From positions 1-64,000 of the forward strand of contig JAIXOO010000043.1 of the NCBI GenBank assembly GCA_027486765.1: 64,000 nt of DNA, read 5' to 3'. This DNA is from Saprospiraceae bacterium. GTDB lineage: Bacteria > Bacteroidota > Bacteroidia > Chitinophagales > Saprospiraceae. Shown here piece by piece: positions 10,831-61,980 of this stretch. The first letter of the stretch is position 1. Every line of letters starts with the position of its first letter. The notes below the pieces were generated by a model. It made no database searches. It was not told where the DNA came from and worked only from the letters and a program-made list of their open reading frames with translations. The position numbers were made by a program, and so were the translations under genes.

Positions 10831-10950
10831 AGTTGAGAAGGTTTAGGGAAGTTGAGAAGGTTTAGGCTCCGCGAGCGATTTTGACAATGTCCTTGTCTAA
10901 GTCGCTCGCGGAGCCTAAACCTTCTCAACCTTCCTAAACCTCCCTCAACT
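10831..10950. repeat. Palindromic element, GGTTGAG-arm family (copy 1)
   Basis: An inverted repeat with arms of about 48 bp (10831-10878 and 10903-10950) and a spacer of about 24 bp. The arms are built of AGTTGAGAAGGTTTAGG-type units and end inside at CTCCGCGAGCGA. Related elements occur at 22656-22734, 39860-39992 and 41129-41246. It sits between the convergent-looking ends of gltX and the start side of the adhesin gene and could act as a transcription terminator or mRNA-stabilising hairpin. Confidence 0.85.
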
Positions 10951-10955
10951 TTTTT

Positions 10956-12610: not shown

Positions 12611-12753
12611 GTGGCTCAATGGGGCGATAAAAAAATAAGTGTTCATTTTGCCAGAGAATTAGATAAGCAAACGGTTCATTTCAAGTGCCTTGTCTAATCC
12701 TTTGGCTCAAGAAAAATGAACACTTATTTTTGCCCTACTACTCAGGTGCAATA
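12611..12753. repeat. Palindromic element sharing the GGGGCAAAATGA / ATCGCCCC motif (copy 1)
   Basis: The segment starting ATGGGGCGATAAAAAAATAA (12619 on) pairs with an inverted arm ending TTATTTTTGCCCTACTAC at about 12740; inner arms around GAATTAGATAAGC and CTTGTCTAATCC also pair. The reverse complement of the left arm matches the block at 56631-56670 almost base for base and the ends of the element at 61688-61980. The rest of the 12477-12857 gap is AT-rich with no gene; the promoter of the deacetylase is probably at its right end. Confidence 0.75.
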
Positions 12754-22655: not shown

Positions 22656-22734
22656 GAAGTTGAGAAACTGAGGAGTTGAGAAGTTGAGTGCCACTCGCGG
22701 CAGCCAAACTTCTCAACTTCTCAACCTTCCCAAC
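22656..22734. repeat. Palindromic element, GGTTGAG-arm family (copy 2, short)
   Basis: Left arm GAAGTTGAGAAACTGAGGAG with further GTTGAGAAGTTGAG units (22656-22688) pairs with CAAACTTCTCAACTTCTCAACC (22704-22725) and the following CCCAACTTTT. The core is shorter than in the other copies and has a different sequence (GCCACTCGCGGCAG). It starts 6 bp after the protease stop and ends in a T-run, so it can serve as a terminator. Confidence 0.75.
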
Positions 22735-22742
22735 TTTTTTCC

Positions 22743-28443: not shown

Positions 28444-28685
28444 GACAATAATAGCAGCGCGGACGACGCGGATTAAGCGGATCTACGCGGATATTTTTCA
28501 CGCCTGCGGCGTGATGGGATAATATTGAGCCACAAAGGCACGAAGACACAAAGCCGCCAAGAAACGATTTTCGGTTTATCTAGCTTTGCGTCTTCGTGCC
28601 TTTGTGGCAAAAAAACTTTGCCGCAGGCAAAGCAAAATCCGCGTAAATCCGCTTAATCCGCGTCGTCCGCGCTGCTATTATTGTC
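28444..28685. repeat. Nested palindromic element, about 242 bp
   Basis: Outer arms of about 49 bp (28444-28492, 28637-28685) begin GACAATAATAGCAGCGCGGA and contain GCGGATTAAGCGGAT. A second pair nested inside is GCCACAAAGGCACGAAGAC / GTCTTCGTGCCTTTGTGGC (near 28529-28547 and 28590-28608). Small hairpins CACGCCTGCGGCGTG and CTTTGCCGCAGGCAAAG lie between the pairs. It fills most of the gap between the sulfatase gene and the convergent VOC gene. Confidence 0.88.
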
Positions 28686-33145: not shown

Positions 33146-33176
33146 GGCGGTAGAATTTGCTGTAATATCGGGAAAA

Positions 33177-33345
33177 GGTTCCAGGGTTCCAAGGGTTCAG
33201 GGTTCCATAGTTCCAGGGTTCCATAGTTCCATAGTTCCAAGGTTCCAGGGTTCCAAGGTTCCAAGGTTCCAAGGTTCCATAGTTCCAGGTTCCAGGGTTA
33301 GGTCGCCTGATTTCGAAAACCCAACCCTGGAACCCTGGAACCTTT
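33177..33345. repeat. GGTTCCA short-unit repeat array with inverted end
   Basis: About 15 imperfect copies of a 7-9 base unit (GGTTCCA, AGGGTTCCA, TAGTTCCA) run from 33177 to about 33297, then a short core (TAGGTCGCCTGATTTCGAAAA) is followed by inverted units CCCTGGAACCCTGGAACC. The same design of repeated left arm, core and inverted right arm as the GGTTGAG family suggests a related mode of growth. It lies between the oxidoreductase gene and the Lys/Ala-rich gene. Confidence 0.85.
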
Positions 33346-38549: not shown

Positions 38550-39857
38550 TTATTGTCCCATCGCTTTTTCCCAACGCAACTTCGCCACCAGGTAATTGTA
38601 CCAGGCACTCAGCGAATTGTTCTCCGCCTCGCGCAGCGAGAATTCCGTATTCAACAAGTCTGCAAAAAGTAGATTCCCACCAGCATATCTTTCTTTTTCC
38701 AACTCCACAATTTTACGTGCCGTTGCCAGGTTTTGCTGGGCGCTTTGCCATTGTACGACCGCGTTTTGCAGCGCAGTTTGGTTGGAGGCCACTTCGTAAC
38801 CAATGTCCTGGCGAATGCGCTCCAGATTGTGTTGGCTGAGCTGGTTTTGCAACTTCAACACTTCCAGGTTTTTTTGTTTGAGGTTGCCGTCAAACAAAGT
38901 GAAGTTGGTCTGTAAGCCAATGTATACTGCAGGGAACCACTTTTCCCAAACTGCAAAATTATTGCTCAAATGTTGCACCGATCCATTGGCAATGGCACTC
39001 AGGTTGGGACGATACTGTTCCTTAAGGCGTTGCTGATCGAGCAGGTTGATGGCCAGGCGTTGTTCTTCTTCTTTGAGCTCCCAACGCTGACCTGTGCTGG
39101 TAGCCGGGTTTGCCGTCAGGTCATTGGCAGGCGGTGCGATGCTGCCAACCTCCAACGGTGTGTCCAGGGGCAGACCTACGCGGTAGGCTAGGTTTTGGCG
39201 GCTAAGGCTGAGGTTGTTTTTAGCCTGATCCCGGGAGGCTTTACTATTGTCCCTTTCCAATTGGCTACGCTGCCCTTCAATGGGCAATAATGCCCCTACA
39301 TTCAGACGGTTTTGACTGATTTGTAAAAGTGACTCCGAGCGTTTGAGCTTTTCCTCCGCAATGGCCAGTTGCTCTTGCTTCAAAAACACATCGTACCAGG
39401 CTTCGGCAATGGTGAGTCGAAAATTGGCCTTTTGTTTCTCCAAAGTGGCTTCCTGCAACACTCTTTGCCCGTCTGCCCGCAACTGATCGCTACGCAAAGT
39501 GGGGTCGATGAGCGAATAACTGACATTGAGGCCACCAGTAATGTTAAAGACAGTACCAAAGCGCAGTTTTTGATCTTCGCCAGTACCAGCACCGCCGAAT
39601 GCTCCGGCTGGGATGATGGTGGTGGGCAAAACGAGGTTGCTGCGCAATTCACCATTGGCGCTTACAACCGGGCTACGGCGGGCATCAACTTTGTTGCGCT
39701 CCCCCTGGGCAATTTGGACTTGCAAATTTTGATTTTTCAAATCCAAACTATTGCTTTGCCCCAACGTAATGGCCTCCTCCAGGCTAATTACCCTTGGAGA
39801 TTGGGCACAAACAAATAAGGAGATCAAAAAGGATATGGTAAAAAGTAGTGGTTTCAT
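38550..39857 (-). CDS. TolC-family outer-membrane efflux protein
   Basis: About 435 residues. A signal peptide (MKPLLFTISFLISLFVCAQ) at ATG 39857 is followed by the two OEP repeats that form the trimeric barrel and periplasmic alpha tunnel: first repeat ISLEEAITLGQSNSLDLKNQ (about 22-41), second from about 230, with conserved coiled helices. The product is the outer-membrane channel of the tripartite exporter encoded upstream (ATPase, HlyD adaptor, permease), which are read in the same direction. The frame extends to 39950, but those residues lie in the palindrome. Confidence 0.92.
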   Translation of the reverse strand: MKPLLFTISFLISLFVCAQSPRVISLEEAITLGQSNSLDLKNQNLQVQIAQGERNKVDARRSPVVSANGELRSNLVLPTTIIPAGAFGGAGTGEDQKLRFGTVFNITGGLNVSYSLIDPTLRSDQLRADGQRVLQEATLEKQKANFRLTIAEAWYDVFLKQEQLAIAEEKLKRSESLLQISQNRLNVGALLPIEGQRSQLERDNSKASRDQAKNNLSLSRQNLAYRVGLPLDTPLEVGSIAPPANDLTANPATSTGQRWELKEEEQRLAINLLDQQRLKEQYRPNLSAIANGSVQHLSNNFAVWEKWFPAVYIGLQTNFTLFDGNLKQKNLEVLKLQNQLSQHNLERIRQDIGYEVASNQTALQNAVVQWQSAQQNLATARKIVELEKERYAGGNLLFADLLNTEFSLREAENNSLSAWYNYLVAKLRWEKAMGQ

Positions 39858-39859
39858 AA

Positions 39860-39992
39860 GTTGAGAGGTTGAGTAGGTTGAGATGGTTGAGGGAGGTTGA
39901 GGAAGGTTGAGGCTACCGCAGCGACCTAGACCTGATCTTGTCCAAGTCACTGCGGTAGCCTAAACCTTCCTCAACCATCTCAACCTTCCTCT
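39860..39992. repeat. Palindromic element, GGTTGAG-arm family (copy 3)
   Basis: The left arm is many GGTTGAG-type units followed by GGCTACCGCAGCGAC (to 39924). The right arm is GTCACTGCGGTAGCCTAAACC with TTCCTCAACCATCTCAACC (39947-39985). The spacer has GATCTTGTCC. It separates the permease gene (stop at 39994) from the tolC gene inside one operon and is very similar, in the same orientation, to the copy at 41129-41246. Confidence 0.9.
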
Positions 39993-39993
39993 A

Positions 39994-41115
39994 CTACGTT
40001 CTAAATATTGCCGATGGTTCCAATCCAGTAATCCTGCGAATGGCAAACAGGCTGCCAAACAGCGCAATGAATAAGGTAAGCGCTAAAAAACCAAACCGCA
40101 TCCACAGAGGGAATTCAAAAATGGTACCCGCCTGGGCGACTCCGACCTTAAATCCATTGACAAAGAAGTAGCCGATTAAAAAACCAATGATGGCTAAAAT
40201 CATAGCCTGCATCAAGATGAGGCGAATGATGTAGCCGTTGGTAGCCCCAATGGCCTTTAGCGTACCATAATCTCGAATGCGGTCGATGGCCGCAGAGTAC
40301 AACGTCAAGCCAATGATGACAAAGCCCACGATCAGTGCAAATACAATCAAGGTACCAAAAGACAGCGCGATACCACTGGAACTCAATACGGTCAAAATCG
40401 TCTCACGCGTAAAATCTTCACTGGCCCAGGCCCGTACCCCTTTCAGGTTTTGGTTGATGTAAAAAATAACCTGCTCACGGGAAACCTTGGGGTCCCAGCG
40501 CAACAAAAAAGCACTGGCCTGATTGTTGGGGATATTGCCAAGGTAGCGGGCTCTTTCAATGGAGGTAAAAGTGTAAGTCCCGCCAAAGGAACGCACCCCT
40601 TTGGTATTTCCCGCAATGAAGACTTTCTTGCCATTGATCTCAAAATAGTCCCCAATTTTGGCACTACCCAAAGCTTCGCGATCGAATACATCGGTAATGA
40701 CTGCTCCATCTTTAAGCATGTCTGCAGTGGTACCTTCGCTGAGCATCCAGGGGCCACCTGCACATTCGGGGTATTGTACACCAATGAGCACGACCCCGGC
40801 ATTTTTGCCATTGGCAAAACGGGCACCACCTGCAGCCAGCACTATCGGGCTGACCTGAACTACCCCCGGTACACTCGCCAGTTCACGCGCTTTGCGCATG
40901 TCCAAGGTAGCCAGGGAGTTGACGTCATTCGTGGTGTCGTCGACCACCCAGATGTACTGCTGATTGTTGCGCACCAATGCTGACATGGCGTTGGTCAGAA
41001 AGATAAAAATGCCACACTGCTGTCCGATCAGAAAAACCGAAAGGATCACGCCAAAGAGCGCACCCAAAGACTTGGCTTTGTCATAAAGCAAAAAACGAAG
41101 CGCAGTTTTGAACAT
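39994..41115 (-). CDS. FtsX-type ABC transporter permease (DevC/MacB-like)
   Basis: 373 residues. An N-terminal helix (SLGALFGVILSVFLIG) is followed by a periplasmic domain of about 200 residues (about 45-245) and three C-terminal helices (ALIVGFVIIGLTLYSAAI, ILMQAMILAIIGFLIGYFF, FLALTLFIALFGSLF) in the FtsX arrangement, with the coupling motif DYGTLKAIGATNGYI. It acts with the ATPase at 42235-42918 and the HlyD adaptor at 41248-42219. The order ATPase, adaptor, permease, TolC resembles the DevBCA-type exporters; the cargo is unknown. Confidence 0.9.
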   Translation of the reverse strand: MFKTALRFLLYDKAKSLGALFGVILSVFLIGQQCGIFIFLTNAMSALVRNNQQYIWVVDDTTNDVNSLATLDMRKARELASVPGVVQVSPIVLAAGGARFANGKNAGVVLIGVQYPECAGGPWMLSEGTTADMLKDGAVITDVFDREALGSAKIGDYFEINGKKVFIAGNTKGVRSFGGTYTFTSIERARYLGNIPNNQASAFLLRWDPKVSREQVIFYINQNLKGVRAWASEDFTRETILTVLSSSGIALSFGTLIVFALIVGFVIIGLTLYSAAIDRIRDYGTLKAIGATNGYIIRLILMQAMILAIIGFLIGYFFVNGFKVGVAQAGTIFEFPLWMRFGFLALTLFIALFGSLFAIRRITGLEPSAIFRT

Positions 41116-41128
41116 GATTTCTATTTGT

Positions 41129-41246
41129 GGTTGAGGAAGGTTGAGAAGGTTGAGAAGGTTGAGGCTACCGCAGCGACGTTGACGCGATCTTGTCCATGTC
41201 GCTGCGGTAGCCTAAACCTTCTCAACCTTCCTCAACCTGCTCAACA
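41129..41246. repeat. Palindromic element, GGTTGAG-arm family (copy 4)
   Basis: Left arm GGTTGAGGAAGGTTGAGAAG... ending GGCTACCGCAGCGAC, right arm GTCGCTGCGGTAGCCTAAACC with TTCTCAACCTTCCTCAACC; spacer contains GATCTTGTCC. It separates the HlyD gene (stop at 41248) from the permease gene (start at 41115). A pair with copy 3 lies on both sides of the permease gene in direct orientation. Confidence 0.9.
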
Positions 41247-41247
41247 T

Positions 41248-42219
41248 TTACTGATCCAATTCAATGACACATTCTACCCGGCTACCGATGAGCACTTTGC
41301 TGTTGTCGTCAAGGCGTACGTGAACTTCGCGCACCCGGCGGTCTTCCAGGTTGTCGGCCCGGTCGGAAAACAGCGACTTCTGTTTGAGGTATGCTCCGGT
41401 AAACACCACGGTACCGCGTGCCAGAATATTGCTTTCGCCCTGTGGACGGAGGTAGGCTTTGTTGCCATTTTTGACCCGGAGCGCAAACAATTCATCTATT
41501 TCACCAACGGCCAGATAGGCACCATCTTTGGCAAATTCGCCCAAGATCGTTTCGGTACCAATGTAATTTCCTGGTTTCACATCGCAAGAGAGGAAGGTAC
41601 CCGTCAGAGGTGCCCGCAGGCTTTTTTTGCCCAATTGAGTCTGGCTCAGACCGATGTCGGCCCGCAGTTCTTCCAATCTTGCCTCCTGTTGTTGGATGTT
41701 TGCTTGCTGCGCAGCGATTTGTTTTTGCAAATCTTCTACACTAAAGCGGCTATCATCCACACTTTGCTGGGTAGCAGCATTGCCTTGGAGGAGTTTGAGG
41801 TTGCGTTCGTAGGTATTCTGGGCGTTGGCCAGTTTTACTTTGATGGATTCCAGGTTGGCTTTGGTCGCAGTGATGGAGGCCTGCTGGGTTTTGATGCGAC
41901 TTTGGGTCTGATGCAATTGGGCGTTTTCAATTGACGATTCGAGGACCACCAATACATCTCCTTTTTTAACCCGGGCATTTTCAGCAAACAAGACCTCCTT
42001 GACAAAACCTGCTGTTTCTACATTGATGCTGATGATTTTGCCTTCGGGTTCGATGCGGGCAACGCCCACCACTTCTTTGACCTTCATGGTGGAATCGAGG
42101 GGGACTTCAGTTGAGGTCAGCGGCTCTTTTTCCGCAGCAGCGGAGTTCGCTTCTTTTTTATCCCCACAACTGCTCAATACTCCGAATAGGGAGATGAAAA
42201 ATAGATGTTTGGTTTTCAT
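41248..42219 (-). CDS. HlyD/MFP-family periplasmic adaptor lipoprotein
   Basis: 323 residues. The start MKTKHLFFISLFGVLSSCGD has a lipobox with Cys18, so the adaptor is probably a lipoprotein. A biotinyl-lipoyl-like half (KVKEVVGVARIEPEGKIISI, about 46-65), a long coiled hairpin (about 110-200), a second lipoyl half (SLRAPLTGTFLSCDVKPG) and a beta-barrel follow. Adaptors of this kind connect the inner-membrane ABC transporter to a TolC channel. It lies 15 bp after the ATPase gene and 132 bp before the permease gene, with a palindrome in between. Confidence 0.92.
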   Translation of the reverse strand: MKTKHLFFISLFGVLSSCGDKKEANSAAAEKEPLTSTEVPLDSTMKVKEVVGVARIEPEGKIISINVETAGFVKEVLFAENARVKKGDVLVVLESSIENAQLHQTQSRIKTQQASITATKANLESIKVKLANAQNTYERNLKLLQGNAATQQSVDDSRFSVEDLQKQIAAQQANIQQQEARLEELRADIGLSQTQLGKKSLRAPLTGTFLSCDVKPGNYIGTETILGEFAKDGAYLAVGEIDELFALRVKNGNKAYLRPQGESNILARGTVVFTGAYLKQKSLFSDRADNLEDRRVREVHVRLDDNSKVLIGSRVECVIELDQ

Positions 42220-42234
42220 GATATTGAAACTAGG

Positions 42235-42918
42235 CTAGTGATCAAATTTTTGTACCTGGGTCACGATTCCATTGTTGACCGCTACGATCCGGTGCGCGTA
42301 CTGCTCCAGGCGGGGGTCGTGCGTAACCACACATACCGCTTTGCCTTCATTCGCGAGATGGCGCAATTCCTGCATGACCACATCCAGGGAATCCTTGTCC
42401 AGCGAGGCGGTGGGTTCATCACAAAGGATCAATTTGGGATTGGTCACCAGGGCCCGAGCGATGGCGACCCGCTGCTGCTGCCCGCCGGAAAGTTGCTTGG
42501 GCAATTGTTTGCGCCGATCCATCATGTCGACCATCTCCAGGGCGGCATATGCACGCTTGCGGCCTTCAGTGTTGCTGACGCCCTGTAAGCGCATGGGCAT
42601 CATGACATTGTCTTCGGCAGAAAGGGGAGCAAGTAGGTTGAAACTTTGAAAAACGAATCCGATGGTGTTGAGCCGTAGCCGGGCCAGTTGGTTCTCATTC
42701 AGGCGGTTGATTTCCTGCCCGTCTACCCATAGTTGTCCTTGGGTAGGGTAGAGTACACAGCCCAACAGAGAAAGCAGCGTGGTTTTGCCGGATCCTGAAG
42801 GGCCGATGATCAGCAACAACTCCCCTTCATTCACCTGCATCGTGGTCGGCTGCAACGCTACGATTTCCTGATCTCCGACGCGGTATACTTTGTTGACATT
42901 TTCCAGTTTGGCAATCAT
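42235..42918 (-). CDS. ABC transporter ATP-binding protein (LolD/MacB/DevA type)
   Basis: 227 residues, one nucleotide-binding domain. Walker A GPSGSGKTT at 39-47, Q-loop FVFQSFNLLAPLSAEDNVM, signature LSGGQQQRVAIARALV at about 140-155, Walker B LILCDEPTASLD at about 163-174 and the switch His in VVTHDPRLEQYA. This group powers lipoprotein release or tripartite export with an FtsX-type permease. It is the first gene of the exporter operon; a perfect inverted repeat of 10 bp lies 23-49 bp upstream of its start, a likely regulatory site. Confidence 0.96.
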   Translation of the reverse strand: MIAKLENVNKVYRVGDQEIVALQPTTMQVNEGELLLIIGPSGSGKTTLLSLLGCVLYPTQGQLWVDGQEINRLNENQLARLRLNTIGFVFQSFNLLAPLSAEDNVMMPMRLQGVSNTEGRKRAYAALEMVDMMDRRKQLPKQLSGGQQQRVAIARALVTNPKLILCDEPTASLDKDSLDVVMQELRHLANEGKAVCVVTHDPRLEQYAHRIVAVNNGIVTQVQKFDH

Positions 42919-42967: not shown

Positions 42968-43071
42968 ATTTTAATGTAAAACTGGAAAAAAGGGAAAAGG
43001 TTGAGGGAATTGGGAAAAAAATAATCTAAAAAGAAAAAGGGCAAGACACGAACCTTTCGCCTCTCGCCCCT

Positions 43072-43231
43072 TAGGAACGGAAATAAAATAAAGTAACCAC
43101 TTGACTAGCTCTTTTTTGCTTTTGCTGCGTTGCTCGTCAGTTACGTAGTACACTATGCGCCTTCCTCGCGCCTTGCCAAATCAAAAAATAGCTCAGTCAA
43201 CTCGTTTACTTTGTTTCATTTCCGTTCCTTA
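43072..43231. repeat. MITE-like inverted repeat, about 160 bp
   Basis: Arms of about 50 bp: TAGGAACGGAAATAAAATAA... (43072-43117) pairs with the inverse of ...GTTTACTTTGTTTCATTTCC GTTCCTTA (43183-43231). The centre is GCTGCGTTGCTCGTCAGTTA followed by ACGTAGTACACTATGCGCC. It fills most of the gap 42968-43280 between the exporter operon start and the glucosaminidase stop; no other gene is seen there. Confidence 0.8.
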
Positions 43232-43280
43232 GCGCAGAAAATAATGGTAAAGCTCTTCGTATTCATCCAATTGAATTGGC

Positions 43281-44962: not shown

Positions 44963-45142
44963 GAGGGATTTCGGATTTGGGATTTGGGATTTCGGAGGGG
45001 CGTTGCATTTTTGAATAGAATAGATTCCGTCTTTTTCTATTCCAAGTGTGAAAAACTTATGGTTAAGGTTCATCATCCAATATAAAGCGCAACGCTCCAC
45101 CGAAATCCGCAATCCGACACCCGAAATCAAATAACTCATTTT

Positions 45143-58146: not shown

Positions 58147-58405
58147 CTGGTACAAGTCTTATGAAGTTTTTTGAAATAACCGTTCTCAAATCCTAGGCTC
58201 GAAGCGCATGAATTGCCTCCAGCTTTAGCTGGTGGATAAGCAGTGAACTCTAGTTTTTGGGCTTTAGCCCCATTTGCAAAATTGAGTTTTGGGCTAAAGC
58301 CCATTCAAGTTCTGGCCATTGATCCACCAGCTAAAGCTGGAGGCAATTCAATCGACAGGGCCTAAAGAACGGTTTTTTCAAAAAACTTCATCAGACTTGT
58401 ACCAG
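58147..58405. repeat. Nested palindromic element, about 260 bp, with REP-like core (copy 2 of GGGCTTTAGCCC family)
   Basis: Outer arms of about 45 bp: CTGGTACAAGTCTTATGAAG with following TTTTTTGAAATAACCGTTCT (58147-58188), inverse at 58365-58405. A second pair is ATTGCCTCCAGCTTTAGCTG (58211 on) against CAGCTAAAGCTGGAGGCAAT (to 58347). In the centre, TTTGGGCTTTAGCCC and GGGCTAAAGCCC (58257-58302) repeat the core seen at 17976-18019. It fills most of the gap 58081-58431 between pabB and the convergent madM. Confidence 0.9.
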
Positions 58406-61687: not shown

Positions 61688-61980
61688 TAGTGGGGCAAAA
61701 TGATTGCTTAACGTGGGTTTTGAATTAATGGAATTGAAAATCAATTCGATAAATCCCAGACGAGGTGTTTTGCTGCCTGGAGGGCAGCTATCTTGGTAGA
61801 TAAAAGGTAATCGGGATATTGTTGCGGCTGCCCGGGGGGCAGCTATCTATAAGATTCTGTCAAAGATAGCTGCCCCCCGGGCAGCTAGGAACCATAAACA
61901 TTCCATTATTTCTACCAAGATAACTGCCCTCCAGGCAGTTTTAATTCAAAACTCACGTTACTTATTTTTTTATCGCCCCT
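61688..61980. repeat. Triply nested palindromic element, about 290 bp (copy 3 of the GGGGCAAAATGA motif at its ends)
   Basis: Outer arms carry GTGGGGCAAAATGA / TTATTTTTTTATCGCCCCT and AACGTGGGTTTTGAATTA / TAATTCAAAACTCACGTT. A second pair is TGCCTGGAGGGCAGCTATCT with TTGGTAGA against TCTACCAAGATAACTGCCC with TCCAGGCA. The innermost pair is GCTGCCCGGGGGGCAGCTAT against ATAGCTGCCCCCCGGGCAGC around ATAAGATTCTGTC. Just outside lie GGGTTCCAGGGTTCC (61594) and GGAACCCTGGAACT (61983), a further inverted pair of the GGTTCCA kind. The 427-bp gap 61593-62019 holds nothing else. Confidence 0.9.

Follow-up and report, generated by a model that had tools for sequence, protein, structure and literature searches.

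A High-Copy Palindromic Repeat Family in Gene Spacers of a Saprospiraceae Bacterium and Its Probable Turnover at the DNA Level

Introduction

REPs, as characterized in the accounts cited here, are 20–40 bp long (PMC3733652) and are known as targets of IS elements (PMC3733652; PMC1525189). Bacterial MITEs, such as NEMIS, RUP, and ERIC, are described as non-coding, hairpin-forming sequences of 70–300 bp that often lie adjacent to genes (PMC3733652). Intergenic direct repeats of the heptamer TAACTGA have been recorded in Beggiatoaceae, Cyanobacteria, and five Bacteroidetes (PMC4679880). In addition, inverted repeats are described as mutating via template switching, a process termed quasipalindrome correction (PMC7202029). 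The persistence and change of repeated bacterial palindromes without an obvious transposase is the general question addressed in the current work.

The palindromes analyzed here share features with each of these systems, as far as the cited descriptions go. Like REPs, BIMEs, and REPINs, they are high-copy and intergenic or extragenic; however, REPs are tied to RAYTs and keep to the short range given above, whereas the copies of the present family measure 109–189 bp from arm to arm (median 128 bp, n = 61 copies) and have tandem-repeat arms. Their size, non-coding nature, proximity to genes, and hairpins are also those of MITEs, and the long inverted arms correspond to terminal inverted repeats. 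The ends, however, are variable tandem arrays instead of fixed terminal repeats, no target-site-duplication signal accompanies them, and no parent transposon was recognized in the regions read. The TAACTGA repeats are likewise short tandem units located by start codons, whereas the units described here are GTTGAG-based and form two inverted arms around a core (often a single arm in one genome, G004). Quasipalindrome correction fits the paired arm changes of the family, but in its description it is a mutation process and not the upkeep of a dispersed family. The family is apparently undescribed; no account of it was found in the literature searched, most subscription journals lying outside that search.

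The genome that contains the locus is referred to below as G000. G001–G003 are the congeners that carry the family, and G004 is the fifth genome of the genus, which we presume to be Haliscomenobacter. The close relatives in this genus allow a gap-by-gap comparison, which makes it possible to distinguish conversion at the DNA level from new insertion and from selection.

Results

The window, i.e., the whole stretch of 64,000 nucleotides that was analyzed, contains an exporter operon on the minus strand, with the genes in the order ATPase, HlyD-like, permease, and TolC-like. The ABC transporter ATPase gene (42235–42918, minus strand; ABC_tran, PF00005) and the HlyD-like adaptor gene (41248–42219, minus strand; Pfam matches below the cut-off) are separated by 15 nt. 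Between the stop codon of the latter (41248) and the start (41115) of the FtsX-type permease gene (39994–41115, minus strand; PF02687) lies a gap of 132 nt, of which element B (41129–41246) occupies all but ~14 nt. The gap of 136 nt from the permease stop codon (39994) to the ATG (39857) of the gene for the TolC-like outer membrane efflux protein (38550–39857, minus strand; OEP, PF02321) is occupied by element A (39860–39993). The initial annotation had reported both the 15-nt gap and the two palindromic elements beside the permease gene, and all of them are present as it had placed them. Neither element is assigned to a strand.

A and B are each ~120–135 bp long. In both, an outer arm of GGTTGAG-based tandem units leads to the core, GGCTACCGC(G)AGCGAC, and to a short asymmetric tip, after which core and arm follow in inverse form. 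The left arm of A (39860–39910) is built of GGTTGAG-type tandem units at a spacing of 8–10 nt, its core (39911–39960) reads GGCTACCGCAGCGAC...GTCACTGCGGTAGCC with the loop GATCTTGTCC, and its right arm (39961–39993) carries inverted, CTCAACC-type units. Among the 62 copies compared, this core and that of B (41163–41212) are each other's closest relatives. In the 64-kb window, the exact 13-mer CTACCGCAGCGAC was found only in A (once) and B (twice), and perfect matches to GATCTTGTCC were likewise confined to the two elements, with one in each; the combination of both sequences occurs only twice in the 7.72-Mb genome. The two elements had been described as being in direct orientation. They indeed match directly, with 85% identity over an inner stretch of 85 nt, but the inverted match (84%, 68 nt) is nearly equal, because each element is nearly symmetric and A therefore aligns to B almost equally well both ways. 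The direct orientation depends on the small asymmetric loop.

RNA folding yielded −87 kcal/mol (z = −13.5) for A and −84.6 kcal/mol (z = −16.6) for B, and none of 200 shuffled sequences was as stable as either element. This result, together with the genome-wide copies described below, rules out a chance similarity of A and B. A known Rfam RNA was also rejected as their identity, since no Rfam family matched the 64-kb window at its gathering score.

A and B belong to a palindromic repeat family that is non-coding, intergenic, and present in high copy number. Its members span ~110–190 bp and are composed of tandem GTTGAG-type units of 8–10 nt and a core GGCTACCGC(G)AGCGA, followed by the inverse of both. 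A third full copy is located within the window (10831–10951, no strand assigned; core GGCTCCGCGAGCGA...), and a fourth lies on the same contig just beyond it (C136:64520). Further copies elsewhere in the genome, which had been proposed as a check of the initial annotation, were found many times over. Copy number was taken from exact arm-core junctions, a measure that misses decayed copies: G000 has 306 junctions with GGTT units and 54 with AGTT units, and the resulting 360 junctions indicate up to ~180 two-armed copies. The corresponding numbers of GGTT and AGTT junctions were 243 and 128 in G001, 141 and 58 in G002, 14 and 137 in G003, and 0 and 0 in G004. A BLAST search with A in its own genome gave at least 80 hits among the best 40 of 269 candidates, many of which represent a single copy hit on both strands.

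Of 24 genomes searched with a covariance model built on 24 copies, four (its own and those of three congeners) contained the family at E values of 1e-4 or better, with counts and absences limited to the best 150 candidate places per genome at most, both strands counted. The family was thus present in three of the four congeners, or in four of the five genomes of the genus including its own. The arm-unit triple alone was found 387 times in its own genome and 111 times in G004. Among 41 genomes of the bacterial family (without G001–G003), any match to this triple was seen in six, and in the four of these other than G000 and G004 the numbers equaled or lay close to the reversed-pattern control (in G007, 26 vs. 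14). The arrays of G004 are mostly single arms with few palindromes (18 stretches read), which indicates that the palindrome is not the sole state. One locus of this genome (L235) holds a unit of ~80 bp, containing a GTTGAG array, in five head-to-tail copies. In addition, an exact 21-mer of the repeat family was found in 31 stretches of three assemblies labelled as Chitinophagales, Bacteroidota, and Saprospiraceae bacteria.

Other repeats are located nearby. Upstream of the exporter operon, at 43070–43232, there is a second repeat, ~163 bp long, whose inverted ends measure 27 nt (CTTAGGAACGG...); it has many copies in G003 and G001, and ~130 bp are absent at the orthologous place in G003. The palindromes at 33175–33342, 44966–45128, and 28458–28663 have the same architecture as A and B with a different unit, their arms consisting of degenerate tandem units (GGTTCCA, GGATTTC, and CGCGGATT around CACAAAGGCACGAAG). 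A small palindrome at 22656–22738 combines GTTGAG arms with a different core (GTGCCACTCGCGGCAGCC). Additional hairpin families were noted at 12631–12731, 58209–58350, and 61772–61938; judged by eye, two GGTTGAG sites of G003, namely A and L004, hold look-alikes of the first two.

The genomic placement was assessed for 61 distinct copies from 70 best-match loci, after duplicates and core-pattern misses had fallen out; because the loci were best matches, this sample leans to well-kept copies. The 60 copies with both neighbors comprised 38 between co-directional, 11 between convergent, and 11 between divergent genes. None of these 60 copies lay within a called gene under the final gene-calling rule, and under a looser rule that allowed GTG and TTG starts, 14 rows out of 121, in which a copy appears about twice, lay within an ORF. 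In 27 of the 38 co-directional pairs, neither edge of the copy was more than 15 nt away from the adjacent start or stop codon, and at least 80% of the gap was filled by the copy in 40 of 60 cases. Copies less than 3 kb apart formed 5 pairs against 1.5 expected, a figure inflated by B and by the second element in L013, both of which came from a neighbor's flank; this suggests a mild clustering of the family.

The two arms of a copy vary together. They were equal at a G/T position in 56 of 61 copies (p = 9e-12) and at an A/G position in 54 of 61 (p = 4e-6), and a paired one-base G indel agreed between the arms in 50 of 61 (p = 5e-7).

For the comparison of the same sites across relatives, the spacers were read after locating the flanks of a first set of 14 and a second set of 18 further copies, and A and B were added. 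The first set was chosen out of the 24 copies in alignment A1 and the second out of 40 fetched loci; L156 and L157, with flanks on different contigs, and L176, with one flank found, were left out of the latter. At the 31 evaluable sites, G003, the closest relative, had the same family in 6 cases, a different hairpin in 10, and nothing comparable in 15. The ten different hairpins are nine palindromes at or above the threshold score of 36 and site A, just under it with 34. The 15 others scored below 24; among them are L158, where a family copy has decayed, and L155 and L174, whose spacers hold other repeats. At the six shared sites, all 12 core-adjacent units were of the GGTT type in G000 and of the AGTT type in G003. 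The arm type is species-specific even at shared sites, and its change is concerted.

Judged by eye, the core differs and the GTTGAG arms are kept at L018 (in three species), L015 and L007 (G002), L159 (G003), L167 (G002), and site A. At L014, L030, and L177, G003 has foreign nested palindromes within remnants of GTTGAG arms. The interiors of the ten G002 copies first read vary by locus, although this variety overstates the average, the copies having been chosen partly for unusual arm spacing. The palindrome center of one G002 copy is occupied by an IS that has rve integrase domains, and another copy holds several nested palindromes. This IS (L214, 100–1900) is centered in a GTTGAG palindrome, has the ends TGTCTCGTCC, and is accompanied by a possible 3-bp CGA duplication.

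Palindromes of other families were present in G003 at 9 of 25 sites, compared with 14 of 89 pooled unselected spacers (p = 0.045) and 1 of 13 unselected G003 spacers (p = 0.12), where the sites included some flanking gene sequence and the baseline spacers none. This borderline enrichment is suggestive of the re-use of family sites by foreign hairpins, which could also come from independent insertions into a few DNA-tolerant spacers.

Site A is occupied by the family core in G000. In G002, GTTGAG arms enclose a CGGTCGCCGAGCGG-type core at this site, and in G003 the hairpin is an unrelated one next to the remnant AAGTTGAGAGGTT. The inverted-repeat scores of the three genomes are 58, 34, and 34, respectively, the latter two being just below the threshold of 36. 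The region is missing in G001, where a deletion reaches into the TolC-like gene. This genome of 1020 contigs shows deletions across the hairpin and its flanks at site A (L041) and at site L007 (L104), which may have arisen at the hairpins through faulty assembly or amplification and were left out. At site B, G000 and G001 have an orthologous copy that includes the GCGATCTTGTC tip, and G003 and G002 have only short gaps with no palindrome. Within 80 kb around the locus in G002, alignments longer than 150 nt were obtained only across the exporter operon.

As A and B are reciprocal closest relatives, one has probably copied the other. In the simplest history, B is the older copy here and A probably obtained its core from B, unless a single donor supplied both. 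Conversion is not generally biased toward short distances: none of the four other pairs less than 3 kb apart were mutual closest relatives, the mean of the five near pairs is unremarkable (p = 0.69), and only the A/B pair stands out.

Discussion

Based on the results of our analysis, we consider it probable that these palindromes form a REP/MITE-like family that resides in gene spacers and is turned over at the DNA level by ectopic recombination. Copies are gained and lost between species, the arms co-vary, the arm type changes in concert, and cores are changed at fixed sites; from these patterns, as opposed to directly observed events of conversion or excision, we infer a DNA-level turnover. 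In the proposed mechanism, a stall would occur at the hairpin or a cleavage near its tip, and the opposite arm or a different copy would serve as the source for its repair. Such repair would keep the arms complementary and homogenize them within a genome, and it would also exchange cores at a fixed site and admit other sequences into the center. An SbcD homologue above the curated cut-off is encoded in the genome, and SbcCD opens hairpins.

The leftover mismatches of the arms bear on the level at which they are kept matched, since these should lean to G-U if the transcribed hairpin is under selection. On the transcribed strand, the mismatches in the arms and outer core comprised 51 G-U and 41 A-C (p = 0.35), and with the inner core added the numbers were 73 and 71; RNA-level selection in the form of a G-U bias was rejected on this basis, and the upkeep looks to be at the DNA level. 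Within the limited power of this comparison, the matching of the arms points to a DNA-level process, e.g., template switching or arm-to-arm correction. Alternatively, the arms could stay matched by selection on the DNA structure or on a protein-bound hairpin.

More tentatively, a palindrome spacer might be a lasting slot. Its tip would time and again be cut or stalled and then refilled from other copies, from other palindrome families, or from IS, with the outer arms persisting and the core being replaced between species. We regard this extension of the proposed turnover as doubtful.

The family might instead be a non-autonomous transposon, MITE or REPIN-like, on which a transposase acts in trans, so that the differences between species would reflect ordinary insertion and loss. 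Its many copies, its long inverted repeats, and the sites occupied in one species and empty in another are in line with this explanation: L154, L162, L170, and L172 are filled in G000 and empty in G003, and have short spacers in G002 (~25–43 nt, span not read). We nevertheless hold trans-transposition to be rather unlikely. The flanks of 61 copies were as similar as permuted flanks, which rules out a MITE with a clear target-site duplication, though the fuzzy ends could hide a short one. None of the six Y1_Tnp loci of G000, found by a genome-wide transposase screen that covered the Y1 type, is flanked by family palindromes within at most ~1.5 kb per side; three of the six have lone GGTTGAG or GGTTTAG words with no family palindrome. 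The sole transposase found between the arms belongs to the IS in the palindrome center, which has its own ends. Moreover, plain insertion and loss leave the switch of arm type at shared sites unexplained.

An identity as RAYT-linked REPs was rejected both for the size of the copies (median 128 bp) and for the lack of such flanking (0/6 loci). Other palindromes do lie near Y1-type transposase loci (L037, 1109–1337 and 1988–2182; L036, 1164–1332; CTACAAATGTG..., GACCGGGGCTACGG...), and these are possibly REP families of their own.

Selection on an RNA element, whose hairpins would govern mRNA stability or relative expression within operons, the exporter included, appears improbable to us. The folds are very stable, 38 of 60 copies are located between co-directional genes, and a hairpin is found at site A in three species. 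On the other side, G-U mismatches do not exceed A-C ones on the transcribed strand, as described above; the asymmetric core is oriented with no strand bias relative to the direction of transcription (12 vs. 17), and 11 of the 60 copies occupy divergent spacers. Furthermore, 15 of the 31 sites have no comparable hairpin in G003, and B is missing from both G003 and G002. Intrinsic transcription terminators, suggested by GC-rich stable stems between genes and named in the initial annotation as the fallback reading of A and B, can be practically dismissed, as no terminator-like site was called at either element, both are located inside an operon, and a U-tract is rare: of 38 co-directional copies, only 3 have TTTT no more than 12 nt downstream and 2 have a T-rich tail.

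A role in tuning the exporter had also been suggested, along with a loss of the permease gene through recombination between A and B. A putative effect of the hairpins on the relative levels of the four exporter genes would be physically plausible. However, copies are also found between many other gene pairs in every gene orientation, which argues against a role dedicated to the exporter, and any effect on its expression would be a by-product and not the reason why the element is present. The permease gene itself is uninterrupted in all four genomes with a close orthologue (G000–G003), contrary to the suggested loss.

Conclusion

Overall, many start codons, including that of the TolC-like gene, are preceded by a spacer that the element takes up completely, and the element may therefore matter for expression by accident. 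If palindrome spacers do persist and are refilled in the manner outlined above, the slots of the chromosome would form a population, with contents open to exchange, that evolves in concert with no dedicated transposase.
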